From the NCBI RefSeq assembly GCF_011682075.1, contig NZ_VSMK01000813.1:1-32312 (forward strand): a stretch of DNA of 32,312 nucleotides, in the 5' to 3' direction. How positions within the stretch are numbered: the first letter of the stretch is position 1; each line of letters begins with the position of its first letter. The DNA comes from Nitratidesulfovibrio liaohensis (GTDB lineage Bacteria; Desulfobacterota; Desulfovibrionia; Desulfovibrionales; Desulfovibrionaceae). Below the pieces are notes generated by a model that was not told the origin of the DNA, did no database searches, and worked only from the letters and a program-made list of their open reading frames with translations. The position numbers and the translations under genes were made by a program. Of the stretch, positions 6,757 to 31,573 are shown one piece after another.

Positions 6757-7325
6757 GTGCCTCTCCTGCGTGTATCGGCGTGAACTGCCGCGTGCTGTCG
6801 CGTGCTGCCGTGTGCGTTGGTGATTTCTGGTCCGGGCGGCCGGGGGGCCGCATTCCGGGGCCGGGCGCCGGGTTCCGGTTCCGCCGCCAGTACGGCTGAC
6901 GGCCAACCGCATGCTCTGACGCGCACCCGGTTCCGGCGCATGCCGCATCGTCTCCGGCCATGTCAGGGGCCTGACTTGCCAAGTGCTGGACTGACTTGCC
7001 AAGCCATGGCCTGATCTGCCGGGCCATGGCCGGAACGGCCACCGGGAAGACACGGGCCGGTGCGGAACTTACTCGTTGCCCGAAGGATAGCAGAAGACCG
7101 CACCGCACCACAAGGCGCCCGTGGCGGCCCGGCCGTCTGGCCGTATTTCATGGTCGGAGCGCCCGCCGCCGTGCGTCACTCACCAGTCTTGTCGGTCGAA
7201 AGCCGCGATGCTTTACGAACCACCCGCCAAAACAAGGGCAGGGAAGGTGCGGGTGCACCCCCCCTGCTCCGAACATGCGTCCATGAACCGGGCGGGCCGG
7301 TTCGCGTGCGCGGGCAAAGCGGCCG
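6757..7325. other. 569-bp tig-clpP intergenic region
   Basis: No credible gene lies here. The spacer contains two short tandem repeat blocks (6781-6810 and 6971-7030) and a hairpin near tig (GAACCGG...CCGGTTC, 7285-7303) without a T-tract. I could not identify a convincing -35/-10 pair for clpP, although a promoter is expected somewhere in so long a spacer. Confidence 0.5.
6971..7030. repeat. three tandem 20-bp repeats
   Basis: Three consecutive 20-mers share a period of exactly 20: CTGACTTGCCAAGTGCTGGA (6971-6990), CTGACTTGCCAAGCCATGGC (6991-7010) and CTGATCTGCCGGGCCATGGC (7011-7030). The first two share CTGACTTGCCAAG, which contains the dyad CTTG-C-CAAG. Location about 215-275 bp upstream of clpP on the clpP strand fits a repeated protein-binding site or a decaying tandem duplication. 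Confidence 0.65.
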
Positions 7326-9133: not shown

Positions 9134-10096
9134 ATGCTGGATTTCAGAAGACTCGAAGCATTCTGCAAGGTCTACGAACTGCGCAGCTTCTCGCGGGCCG
9201 GGGCGGACCTGTTCCTGTCCCAGCCCACCATCAGCGCGCACGTCCTTGCACTGGAAAAGGAACTGGGCGTCCGCCTGCTCGACCGCATGGGTCGGCAGGT
9301 GCTGCCCACGCCCGCCGGAGAAGTGCTGTACCGGCGCGCGTCGGAGGCGTTTGCCAGCCTTGCCGCCGCAGAGGCCGAAATCGGCCAACTGCGCGACGAG
9401 GTCAGCGGCGATCTTGTGGTTGGCGGCAGTACCATACCCGCGCATCACGTCCTGCCGGAGGTCATCGCCGGGTTCGTGCGCACCTATCCCTCGGTGCGCG
9501 TGCACCTGCGCGTGGGCGACACGGCGGACATCGTGCAGCGCGTCACCGATGGCGAGCTGATGCTGGGGCTGGTGGGCGCGGTGGAGCCGCACTCCGACCT
9601 GGTGTTCGAACCGCTGGTGGACGACGAACTGGTGGTGGTGGCCGCGCCGGAGCTTGCAGGCGGCAGGCGTCACGTACAGGTCGAGGAACTGGCCCAGTGG
9701 CCGTGGATCATGCGCGAGGCCGGGTCCGGTACGCGGCGCACCTTTGCCGAGTCCCTGGCCGCCGCAGGCATGGACGTGCGGCGACTGCCGGTGGCCCTGG
9801 TGGTGGACAGCACCCAGGCTGTCGTGCAGTACGTGCGCGCGGGCCTTGGGATCAGCGCCACCTCGCGCCTGGCCGTGGCCGAAAGCATCGCCCGTGGCGA
9901 ACTGGTGGAACTGCAACTGGACGATTGTCGCCCTGCGCGACAATTCCACTCGGTACGGCATGCCCGGCGGCACCAGTTCCCTGCGGCGGTGGCCTTTGCC
10001 GCCTTCCTCGGCGAGCATACCAGCCACCTGCGCAACGGCCATGCAACGGGCGCCGAAGCTGGCAACACCAAGACCCGTCACAAGGACAAGGCATGA
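9134..10096 (+). CDS. LysR-family transcriptional regulator coupled to selD
   Basis: This 320-residue protein has a LysR N-terminal winged helix-turn-helix (about residues 1-60: MLDFRRLEAF, then SFSRAGADLFLSQPTISAHV as recognition region, then LEKELGVRLLDR). A periplasmic-binding-protein-like effector domain (about 92-300) follows. The ATG at 9134 gives the canonical LysR start; longer frames upstream cross the tRNA gene antisense and are rejected. Its stop codon overlaps the start of selD (ATGA at 10093-10096), so the two are translationally coupled. A family of selenium-metabolism-associated LysR regulators is known from this genomic setting, so control of selD or selenoprotein genes is likely. 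The effector is unknown. The C-terminus after about residue 300 is low in complexity. Confidence 0.88.
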   Translation: MLDFRRLEAFCKVYELRSFSRAGADLFLSQPTISAHVLALEKELGVRLLDRMGRQVLPTPAGEVLYRRASEAFASLAAAEAEIGQLRDEVSGDLVVGGSTIPAHHVLPEVIAGFVRTYPSVRVHLRVGDTADIVQRVTDGELMLGLVGAVEPHSDLVFEPLVDDELVVVAAPELAGGRRHVQVEELAQWPWIMREAGSGTRRTFAESLAAAGMDVRRLPVALVVDSTQAVVQYVRAGLGISATSRLAVAESIARGELVELQLDDCRPARQFHSVRHARRHQFPAAVAFAAFLGEHTSHLRNGHATGAEAGNTKTRHKDKA

Positions 10097-11145
10097 GCCG
10101 CATCCGTCTGGTCGATTCGGTCAAGGCCGCCGGTTGAGCCGCCAAGGTGGCTCCGGGGGACCTGGAGCGCATCCTGGCGGGGCTGCCGCGCGACCCGTCC
10201 GTTGAAGACAGGGTCATCGTGGGCACGCGTCACAACGAGGACGCGGCCGTGGTGCGCCTGCCCGGTGGTCAATCCATCGTGCAGACGCTGGACTTCTTCA
10301 CGCCCATCGTCAACGATCCCTACCGGTTCGGGCGCATCGCCGCAGCCAACGCCCTGTCTGACGTCTACGCCATGGGCGGCGAACCATGGTGCGCCATGAA
10401 CATCGTCTGCTTTCCGGTAAAGCGGTTGCCGGAATCCATCCTGGCCGACATCCTGCGCGGCGGGTCCGACGCGATGCGCGAGGCGGGCGCTGCGCTGGTG
10501 GGCGGCCACAGCGTGGAAGACGATGAAATCAAGTACGGGCTGTCCGTCACCGGCCTCATTGATCCAGAGGTCATCGCCTCCAATGCCGGTTTGCGCCCCG
10601 GCGACCGCCTGCTGCTCACCAAACCGCTGGGCACCGGCATTCTTGCCACCGCAGTCAAGGCCAACTGGCCCGGCTGCGACGCCCACGAGGAAGAACTGTT
10701 CCGCTGGGCCGCGCGCCTGAACAAGGGCGCGGGCCAGGTGATCCGTGAATTGCGACTGAAGGCCGCCACCGACGTCACCGGCTTCGGCCTTGGCGGGCAC
10801 TGCCTGGAAATGGCCGGGGCCTCCGGGGTCACCGTGGCCCTGGACATCGCCGCCCTGCCTGTGCTGCCCGGCGTGCTGGAACTGGCGAGCATGGGGCTGG
10901 TGCCGGAAGGCAGCCACGCCAACCGCGCATACTGCCACAAGTACGTGCACGCGGAACCCGGTGTCAGCCCCGAGTTGGCCGACGTGGCCTTCGACGCCCA
11001 GACTTCTGGCGGCATGGTGCTGGCCGTGCCGCCGGACCAGGTGGGCCGGGCAACTGCCCTGCTGGCCGAAACCGGAGACCCCGCCTACCCCGTGGGCGAG
11101 GTGCTGGAACAGTTGCCCGGCGGCGTGCGTTTGCTGCTGCGGTAG
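10093..11145 (+). CDS. selD: selenide, water dikinase (SelD), selenocysteine-containing, read through in-frame TGA
   Basis: SelD makes monoselenophosphate from selenide and ATP for Sec-tRNA and tRNA selenouridine synthesis. The frame starts at ATG 10093 (AAGGA 6 nt upstream, overlapping the LysR stop) and meets TGA at 10135-10137, codon 15. On both sides the protein is SelD: before it IRLVDSVKAAG, after it AAKVAPGDLERIL. The TGA therefore falls where E. coli has catalytic Cys17, with the essential Lys at position 18 (E. coli Lys20). A SECIS-like hairpin follows. Downstream features are typical: TRHNEDAAVVRLPGG, TLDFFTPIVNDPYRFGRIAAANALSD in part, GGHSVEDDEIKYGLSVTG, TKPLGTGI, TDVTGFGLGGH and DAQTSGG. 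Full length is 350 residues including Sec. Calling the start at GTG 10147 would delete the active site and is wrong. Confidence 0.95.
10138..10180 (+). promoter_or_regulatory. candidate bacterial SECIS element of selD
   Basis: Thirteen nt after the UGA, CUCCGG (10151-10156) pairs with CC-U-GGAG (10161-10167), leaving a bulged U and a GGGA loop. This matches the bulged-U, G-containing minihelix that SelB binds in E. coli fdhF. An outer stem pairs CCGCC (10139-10143) with GGCGG (10176-10180) and AGG (10145-10147) with CCU (10173-10175). Distance and shape fit a functional SECIS. Folding was done by eye. Confidence 0.75.
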
Positions 11146-11250: not shown

Positions 11251-11288
11251 AAAAGGCCGCCCCATCCCGGAGCGGCCTTTTCCTTTGC
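11251..11288 (+). terminator. Rho-independent terminator of selD
   Basis: AAAAGGCCGC (11251-11260) pairs perfectly with GCGGCCTTTT (11272-11281) and is followed by CCTTTG. It lies about 105 nt after the selD stop. The A/T flanks make it potentially bidirectional, backing up the rplQ terminator next to it. Confidence 0.85.
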
Positions 11289-30286: not shown

Positions 30287-31573
30287 ATGTCCAAGCTGGT
30301 TCCCCCTCATGGTGGCAAGGGCCTCGTCTGCTGCCTGCTCGAAGGCGCTGCCCGCGAAGCCGAACTCAAGAAGGCCGCCGGCCTGAAGCAGATCGAAATC
30401 AGCTCGCGCACCAAGGGCGACCTCATCATGATGGGCATCGGCGGCTTCTCTCCGCTGAACGGCTTCATGAAGAAGGCCGACTGGAAGAGCGTCTGCGAAA
30501 AGATGACCACCGCCGACGGCACCTTCTGGCCCGTGCCGGTGACCATGGACATCTCCAAGGAAGACGCCGCCGCCGTCAAGGTGGGCGACGAAGTGGCCTT
30601 GGTGCGTAAGGGTGAAACCTTCGCCACCATGAAGGTCGAAGAAATCTACGAAATGACCGAAGCCGACAAGAAGTGGGAATGCGAGCTCGTCTTCAAGGGC
30701 GAAGGCCCCGACTCCCAGAAGTTCTGGGAAGTGGCGCTCGAAGACCACCCCGGCGTGAAGATGGTCATGGAACAGAAGGAATTCAACGTCGCCGGTACCG
30801 TGAAGGTGCTGTCCGAAGGTGACTTCCCCACCAAGTTCGCCGGCGTGTACAAGCGCCCCGCCGAACTGCGCGCCGAAATGGAAGAACGCGGCTGGGCCAA
30901 CGTTGCCGCCCTGCAGCTGCGCAACCCCATGCACCGCTCGCATGAATTCCTGGCCAAGATCGCCATCGAAGTGTGCGACGGCGTGGTCATCCACTCCCTG
31001 GTGGGCGCCCTGAAGCCCGGCGACATTCCCGCCGAAGTGCGCGTGAAGTGCATCGACACCCTGGTCGAAAAGTACTTCGTGAAGCAGAACGTCATCCAGG
31101 CCGGCTACCCCCTGGACATGCGTTACGCCGGTCCCCGCGAAGGCCTGCTGCACGCCACCTTCCGCCAGAACTACGGCATCAACCGCATGATCATCGGCCG
31201 TGACCACGCTGGCGTGGGCGACTTCTACGGCATGTTCGAAGCCCAGACCATCTTCGACAAGATCCCCTACGTCAACGAAGCCTGCCCCGAACCCGGCAAG
31301 GCCCTGATCTGCACCCCGCTGAAGATCGACTGGACCTTCTACTGCTACAAGTGCGACGGCATGGCCTCTCTGCGCACCTGCCCGCACGGCAAGGAAGACC
31401 GGGTCATCCTGTCCGGCACCAAGCTGCGCAAGGCCCTGTCCGACGGCGCCCCCGTTGCCGACCACTTCGGCCGCGACGAAGTGCTGGAAATCCTGCGCGC
31501 CTACTACGAAGGCCTGACCGAAAAGGTCGAAGTCAAGATGCAGCAGGCTGCTTCCGGCTCCGTGATGAAGTAG
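30287..31573 (+). CDS. sat: sulfate adenylyltransferase (ATP sulfurylase), dissimilatory type
   Basis: This 428-residue enzyme activates sulfate to adenosine 5'-phosphosulfate, the first step of sulfate respiration in the cytoplasm. The nucleotide-binding motif [10 protein letters not shown] is at residues 210-219 and GRDHAG at 304-309. A metal-binding cluster CYKC...TCPH gives Cys353, Cys356, Cys365 and His367. It lacks a fused APS kinase domain. The start [10 protein letters not shown] at 30287 is preferred; GGAGG lies upstream and an ATG three codons earlier is less likely. The upstream Rex-like site ties expression to NADH/NAD. A strong terminator follows, so it is monocistronic. Codons are strongly biased to C/G endings, as expected for a highly expressed gene. 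Confidence 0.98.

Follow-up and report, generated by a model that had tools for sequence, protein, structure and literature searches.

Selenophosphate synthetases with selenocysteine at the catalytic site

Cys17 and Lys20 are essential in the selenophosphate synthetase SelD of Escherichia coli, which we take to be the protein of PDB entry 3u0o. The SelD described here is encoded by Nitratidesulfovibrio liaohensis within a window of 32,312 nucleotides (the whole stretch of DNA analyzed, contig NZ_VSMK01000813.1). It has the family, the catalytic site, and Lys20 in common with the E. coli enzyme and differs in having a predicted selenocysteine (Sec) in place of Cys17 and Ala17 in place of the second Cys (Cys19). 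Aquifex aeolicus is a distant organism, and the solved chain of its SelD (presumably entries 2yye and 2zod) carries Cys in place of the native Sec. This chain has SGCAAKVGPGDL at the catalytic place, like the window, and in the PDB alignment 2yye (GCAAKVGPGDL) and the window product (GUAAKVAPGDL) are near-identical at this site. The idea that SelD is autoregulated reportedly goes back to Guimaraes et al. in 1996, to judge from the title of that paper, which is cited in PMC10778597.

Closer to the window, Table 3 of a 2006 survey (PMC1794560) credits both Desulfovibrio vulgaris and D. desulfuricans with SelD as a selenoprotein, and these proteins are of the same family and the same Sec form as the SelD of the window. 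D. vulgaris is now classified as Nitratidesulfovibrio vulgaris and shares its genus with N. oxamicus, the named close relative beside whose SelD the window SelD is placed in our SelD tree of 87 rows (97/62). We know of no difference in kind between D. vulgaris SelD and that of the window, the two being likened at the level of the published listing. Among reference prokaryotes, Sec-coding genes make up 19% of SelD genes, with the position always the same, according to PMC4561486. Since Sec-type SelD has been published for the genus since 2006, the finding presented here is correct but already known, in kind as well as in genus, and is nothing new in kind.

The selD gene and its in-frame TGA codon

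The selD gene (selenide, water dikinase; positions 10093 to 11145, forward strand) runs from an ATG at 10093 to a TAG stop at 11143-11145, with a single in-frame TGA at codon 15 (10135-10137), a candidate Sec codon. Its read-through product comprises 350 residues, including Sec15, and reads MSRIRLVDSVKAAG-U-AAKVAPGDL around the TGA. The curated profile TIGR00476 scores 360 bits against this product (cut-off, 125) and spans residues 6 to 316, covering both flanks of the TGA without a frame shift, just as the initial annotation had described an unbroken SelD sequence on either side of codon 15. In a phmmer alignment to PDB sequences, residues 15 and 18 fall opposite Cys17 and Lys20, respectively, of 3u0o, and the catalytic Cys/Sec followed by Lys three residues on thus appears as U15 and K18; the placement of the TGA on E. 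coli Cys17, proposed earlier from the letters alone, is borne out. The same codon is TGC in three homologous loci (L037, L089, and L102). Judging from these matches, the gene is a selD whose product is predicted to make selenophosphate from selenide and ATP. Family score, alignment, and conservation all agree with a selD carrying an in-frame TGA at the catalytic position.

Conservation of the TGA codon among relatives

We searched 59 genomes (the window's own and 58 relatives) for SelD and obtained a match in 56, of which 53 carry one in-frame TGA, the TGA of G024 falling in a match segment of its own. Genome G015 has a full-length match with no in-frame TGA and TGC at the site, the matches in G021 and G053 stop short of the codon-15 site, and G013, G017, and G050 gave no SelD match in this search. 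The position of the TGA inside SelD was read for 30 loci of this set, namely, the window's own locus and the 29 ranking next to it, and codon 15 is TGA in 29 of them and TGC in one (L037, from G015). All seven congeners have the same TGA. From a contig scan, the best 80 named loci were retained, and here codon 15 is TGA in 78 and TGC in two (L089 and L102). The two sets overlap by 10 sequences, the 110 loci corresponding to 100 different selD stretches, and among the matches listed 107 of the 110 keep TGA, the other three having TGC. With all seven congeners and 107 of the 110 loci sharing the codon, its conservation exceeds chance.

Where translation begins

A gene call under translation table 11 opens at a GTG (10147-10149, forward strand) and yields an open reading frame (ORF) of 332 amino acids that drops the active site, as the initial annotation had anticipated. 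This ORF start, along with the absence of selA from the assembly (see below), speaks for the TGA being a true stop, with a protein made from GTG 10147 that has no catalytic residue. We regard this as highly improbable, given that the residues ahead of the TGA are conserved (A12 in 20, A13 in 18, and G14 in 22 of 22 sequences, residues 1 to 5 not being conserved) and that the family profile matches from residue 6. A start at codon 19 is not conserved, as this codon is ATG, GTG, or TTG in just 31 of the 107 TGA loci listed in the two overlapping sets. In addition, a Shine-Dalgarno-like stretch, AAGGACAAGG (10082-10091, forward strand), precedes ATG 10093 and is identical in 8 of 8 genus members, the window counted, and wherever the TGA is replaced among the loci listed (3 of 110), it is replaced by Cys.

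A SECIS-like hairpin follows the TGA codon

Directly 3' of the TGA we observe a bacterial SECIS-like hairpin (10139-10180, forward strand), identified by its fold, synonymous shuffling, frozen codons, pair counts, and published constraints. Its upper stem of 8 pairs (10150-10157 with 10161-10168) is surrounded by lower stems and closes an apical GGA loop (10158-10160) 20 nt after the TGA. Starting at the TGA, a segment of 46 bases has a folding energy of -30.6 kcal/mol (z, -4.13), and none of 200 dinucleotide shuffles folds as well. The bacterial SECIS model, as given in PMC13188914, asks for a loop of 3 to 9 nt, an upper stem of 4 to 16 bp, a G within the first two bases of the loop at 16 to 37 nt from the UGA, and an energy of at most -7.5. 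The window hairpin fits every one of these published constraints, with its GGA loop, 8 pairs, G in first place, distance of 20 nt, and energy of -30.6 kcal/mol.

Compared with synonymous shuffles, the window hairpin has a z of -3.6 (p, 0.001). The mean z over 29 TGA loci is -2.4, with L031 at +0.8 and L023 at -0.2, and the energy is not exceptional in every relative. Codon identity was assessed in 22 TGA sequences of the 30 loci, a set from which L037, being of the Cys type, and all seven congeners were dropped. Among the 17 to 22 sequences that share the respective residue, codons 22, 23, and 25 (GGG, GAC, and GAG) are 100% identical, codon 24 (CTG) is 95% identical, and codon 21 is 73% identical, so that codons 22 to 25 are nearly frozen at synonymous sites. 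Outside codons 16 to 26, there are 177 codons for which 15 or more sequences share the residue, and 1 of these has an identity of at least 90%.

Pairing was evaluated in 90 distinct TGA segments from the 107 loci listed. In a 7-pair stem, 90.8% of cells are standard pairs, falling to 56% or less when the stem is slid by 1 to 3 bases, and 0 of 1,000 column shuffles, which ignore the relatedness of the sequences, score as high. Changes on both sides of the stem amount to 19 cells, a number reached in 0 of 1,000 shuffles, yet the version slid by -2 also has 19. All 90 segments have a G at the first or second position of the loop. In the common register, the upper stem forms 7 of 7 pairs in 47 of the 78 TGA loci among the best 80 named, 6 pairs in 19, and 5 or fewer in 12. 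An Rfam search around selD returned no SECIS match, tRNA alone reaching the gathering score. We rejected the hairpin as proof of Sec decoding, since the Cys gene L037 has a strong hairpin too.

Exchange of Cys and Sec in a small clade

In the 87-row tree, the Cys-type sequences L037, L089, and L102 form one clade nested among TGA types, and the TGA-type L118 lies inside it as the sister of L037 (98/80). This mixed TGC/TGA clade belongs to the Desulfovibrionaceae. L118 retains only 4 of 7 hairpin pairs in the common register. Both selA and tRNA-Sec are present in the genomes of L118 (TGA) and L102 (Cys), and we obtained no selA and no tRNA-Sec match in those of L037 (G015) and L089, the genomes of L089 and L102 being of unstated completeness. 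The notion that Cys-type SelD occurs only where the Sec machinery has been lost was rejected because L102 combines Cys with selA and tRNA-Sec. The clade reflects either repeated loss of Sec or a return from Cys to Sec in L118.

The strong hairpin of L037 follows its Cys codon where a SECIS would stand and has a CGU loop instead of GGA; it is likely a fossil SECIS. Leftover SECIS-like hairpins in Cys homologues, as well as changes from Sec to Cys in SelD, are already on record in PMC1794560.

Selenium machinery in the genome

The assembly is a draft of 813 contigs rated 86.8% complete. It holds a tRNA-Sec gene (selC, contig C520; 83.6 bits against a cut-off of 47) with the anticodon TCA and a selB fragment that scores 337.7 bits, above cut-off, covers profile positions 1 to 349 of 581, and has a frame running off the end of the 3,177-base contig C330. 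The initial annotation had looked to selA, selB, and selC elsewhere in the genome: tRNA-Sec is there, selB is there in part, and the genome search of this draft gave 0 candidates for selA. It had also named a lack of selA as grounds against its reading; selA is indeed missing from the assembly, but by synteny its locus falls in a contig gap, and selA is present in 6 of 7 congeners (tRNA-Sec likewise being found in 6 of 7). The congener G007, a single contig, carries selA at 5692-7005 of L057. Contig C2 of the window's genome ends (base 30480 of 30480) at L057 position 4567, and C125 (from base 8) resumes at 7035 in the same orientation relative to L057. No match from the window's genome falls between 4567 and 7035 among the 40 of 523 candidates that were scored. 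The lack of selA candidates would be explained by its syntenic place, which lies past the last base of C2 and ahead of C125, and we infer that selA would sit on an unassembled piece between these contigs.

Four full-length formate dehydrogenases in the same genome score above cut-off, each with one in-frame TGA somewhere in the gene, and UGA decoding therefore probably extends beyond selD. That the UGA might be read as another amino acid, such as Trp or Cys, instead of Sec draws on the charging step, which is unproven without selA in the assembly. Set against tRNA-Sec, the selB fragment, the SECIS-like hairpin, the four formate dehydrogenase genes with their in-frame TGA, and a contig gap at the syntenic place of selA, this reading is scarcely credible. 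That the TGA stands for a Cys codon misread in sequencing, or marks a pseudogene, is a reading for which a draft in 813 contigs at 86.8% completeness might speak. It has a practically negligible chance of being right, as all seven congeners and the majority of the loci read across the order share this TGA and the remaining selD frame is intact.

A single SelD above the family cut-off is found in the window's genome, with no Cys-type spare. The selenouridine synthase YbbB, representing a second use of selenophosphate, has no match there and is above cut-off in 3 of the 59 genomes, none of them of the window's genus. Two relatives, G017 and G050 (rated 99% and 97% complete), have selA, selB, and tRNA-Sec and no SelD above cut-off, which may be due either to an assembly gap or to a different SelD.

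Neighboring genes and signals

Upstream of selD lies a gene for a selenium-associated LysR family regulator (9134-10096, forward strand, ATG at 9134) with Pfam LysR domains; the profile NF040786 (LysR_Sec_metab) scores 271.4 bits over 9137-10093 (cut-off, 250). Its stop overlaps the selD start codon (ATGA), and a similar LysR gene adjoins selD in 42 of the 110 loci listed, some of which end early at contig ends. A LysR_Se subfamily located beside Sec genes has been proposed as a selenophosphate sensor in PMC5322559. Taking this report together with the LysR stop lying on the selD ATG, selD and its probable regulator seem to form an operon-like pair.

Between selD and the gene for ribosomal protein L17, which is on the opposite strand to selD, there is an inverted repeat (11251-11281) with flanking runs of A and T (AAAAGGCCGC...GCGGCCTTTT) that looks like a two-way terminator. 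A promoter and terminator scan gave nothing useful for selD and did not list this repeat, perhaps missing it for its long loop. Pfam searches of 20 hand-picked ORFs of the window found no family in 9 of 10 of one batch and in 2 of 10 of the other; the family-less ORFs are probably spurious frames that shadow genes of the opposite strand.

Interpretation and implications

Sec insertion at the TGA is supported by the alignment with Cys homologues, conservation, the SECIS-like hairpin, and the frozen synonymous sites, as well as by tRNA-Sec, the partial selB, and the in-frame TGA of four further genes. On these grounds, the window gene is almost certainly an ordinary Sec-type selD whose Sec15 would be inserted by means of the UGA and the SECIS hairpin. 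SelB and Sec-tRNA-Sec would bind the hairpin just 3' of the UGA (10135-10137), and residue 15, which in Cys-type SelD is the catalytic Cys, would become a selenocysteine with a presumed role in catalysis. The enzyme would then supply SelA with selenophosphate made from selenide and ATP, and in this way may feed its own synthesis along with that of other selenoproteins, e.g., the formate dehydrogenases. That SelD needs its own product, as had been suggested at the outset, is a fair inference given one SelD above the family cut-off in the genome, and the idea is an old one.

With a single Sec-type SelD, no Cys spare, and a LysR gene whose stop overlaps the start codon of selD, the locus might even constitute an unbuffered positive loop, in which selenophosphate is needed to make SelD while a LysR of a kind proposed to sense selenophosphate sets selD transcription; we think this unlikely. 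If it were true, the selenium trait as a whole could behave like a switch, with any cell depleted of SelD restarting only by inherited enzyme or by low-level readthrough.

Read as an ordinary Sec-type selD, the gene has its main bearing on annotation, where the table-11 call drops the first 18 residues of SelD with the catalytic site among them. The selD relatives also show how an RNA element constrains the synonymous sites of a coding stretch, and they include the small clade with exchange between Sec and Cys. The selD of the window itself is a clear-cut instance of a case already known.
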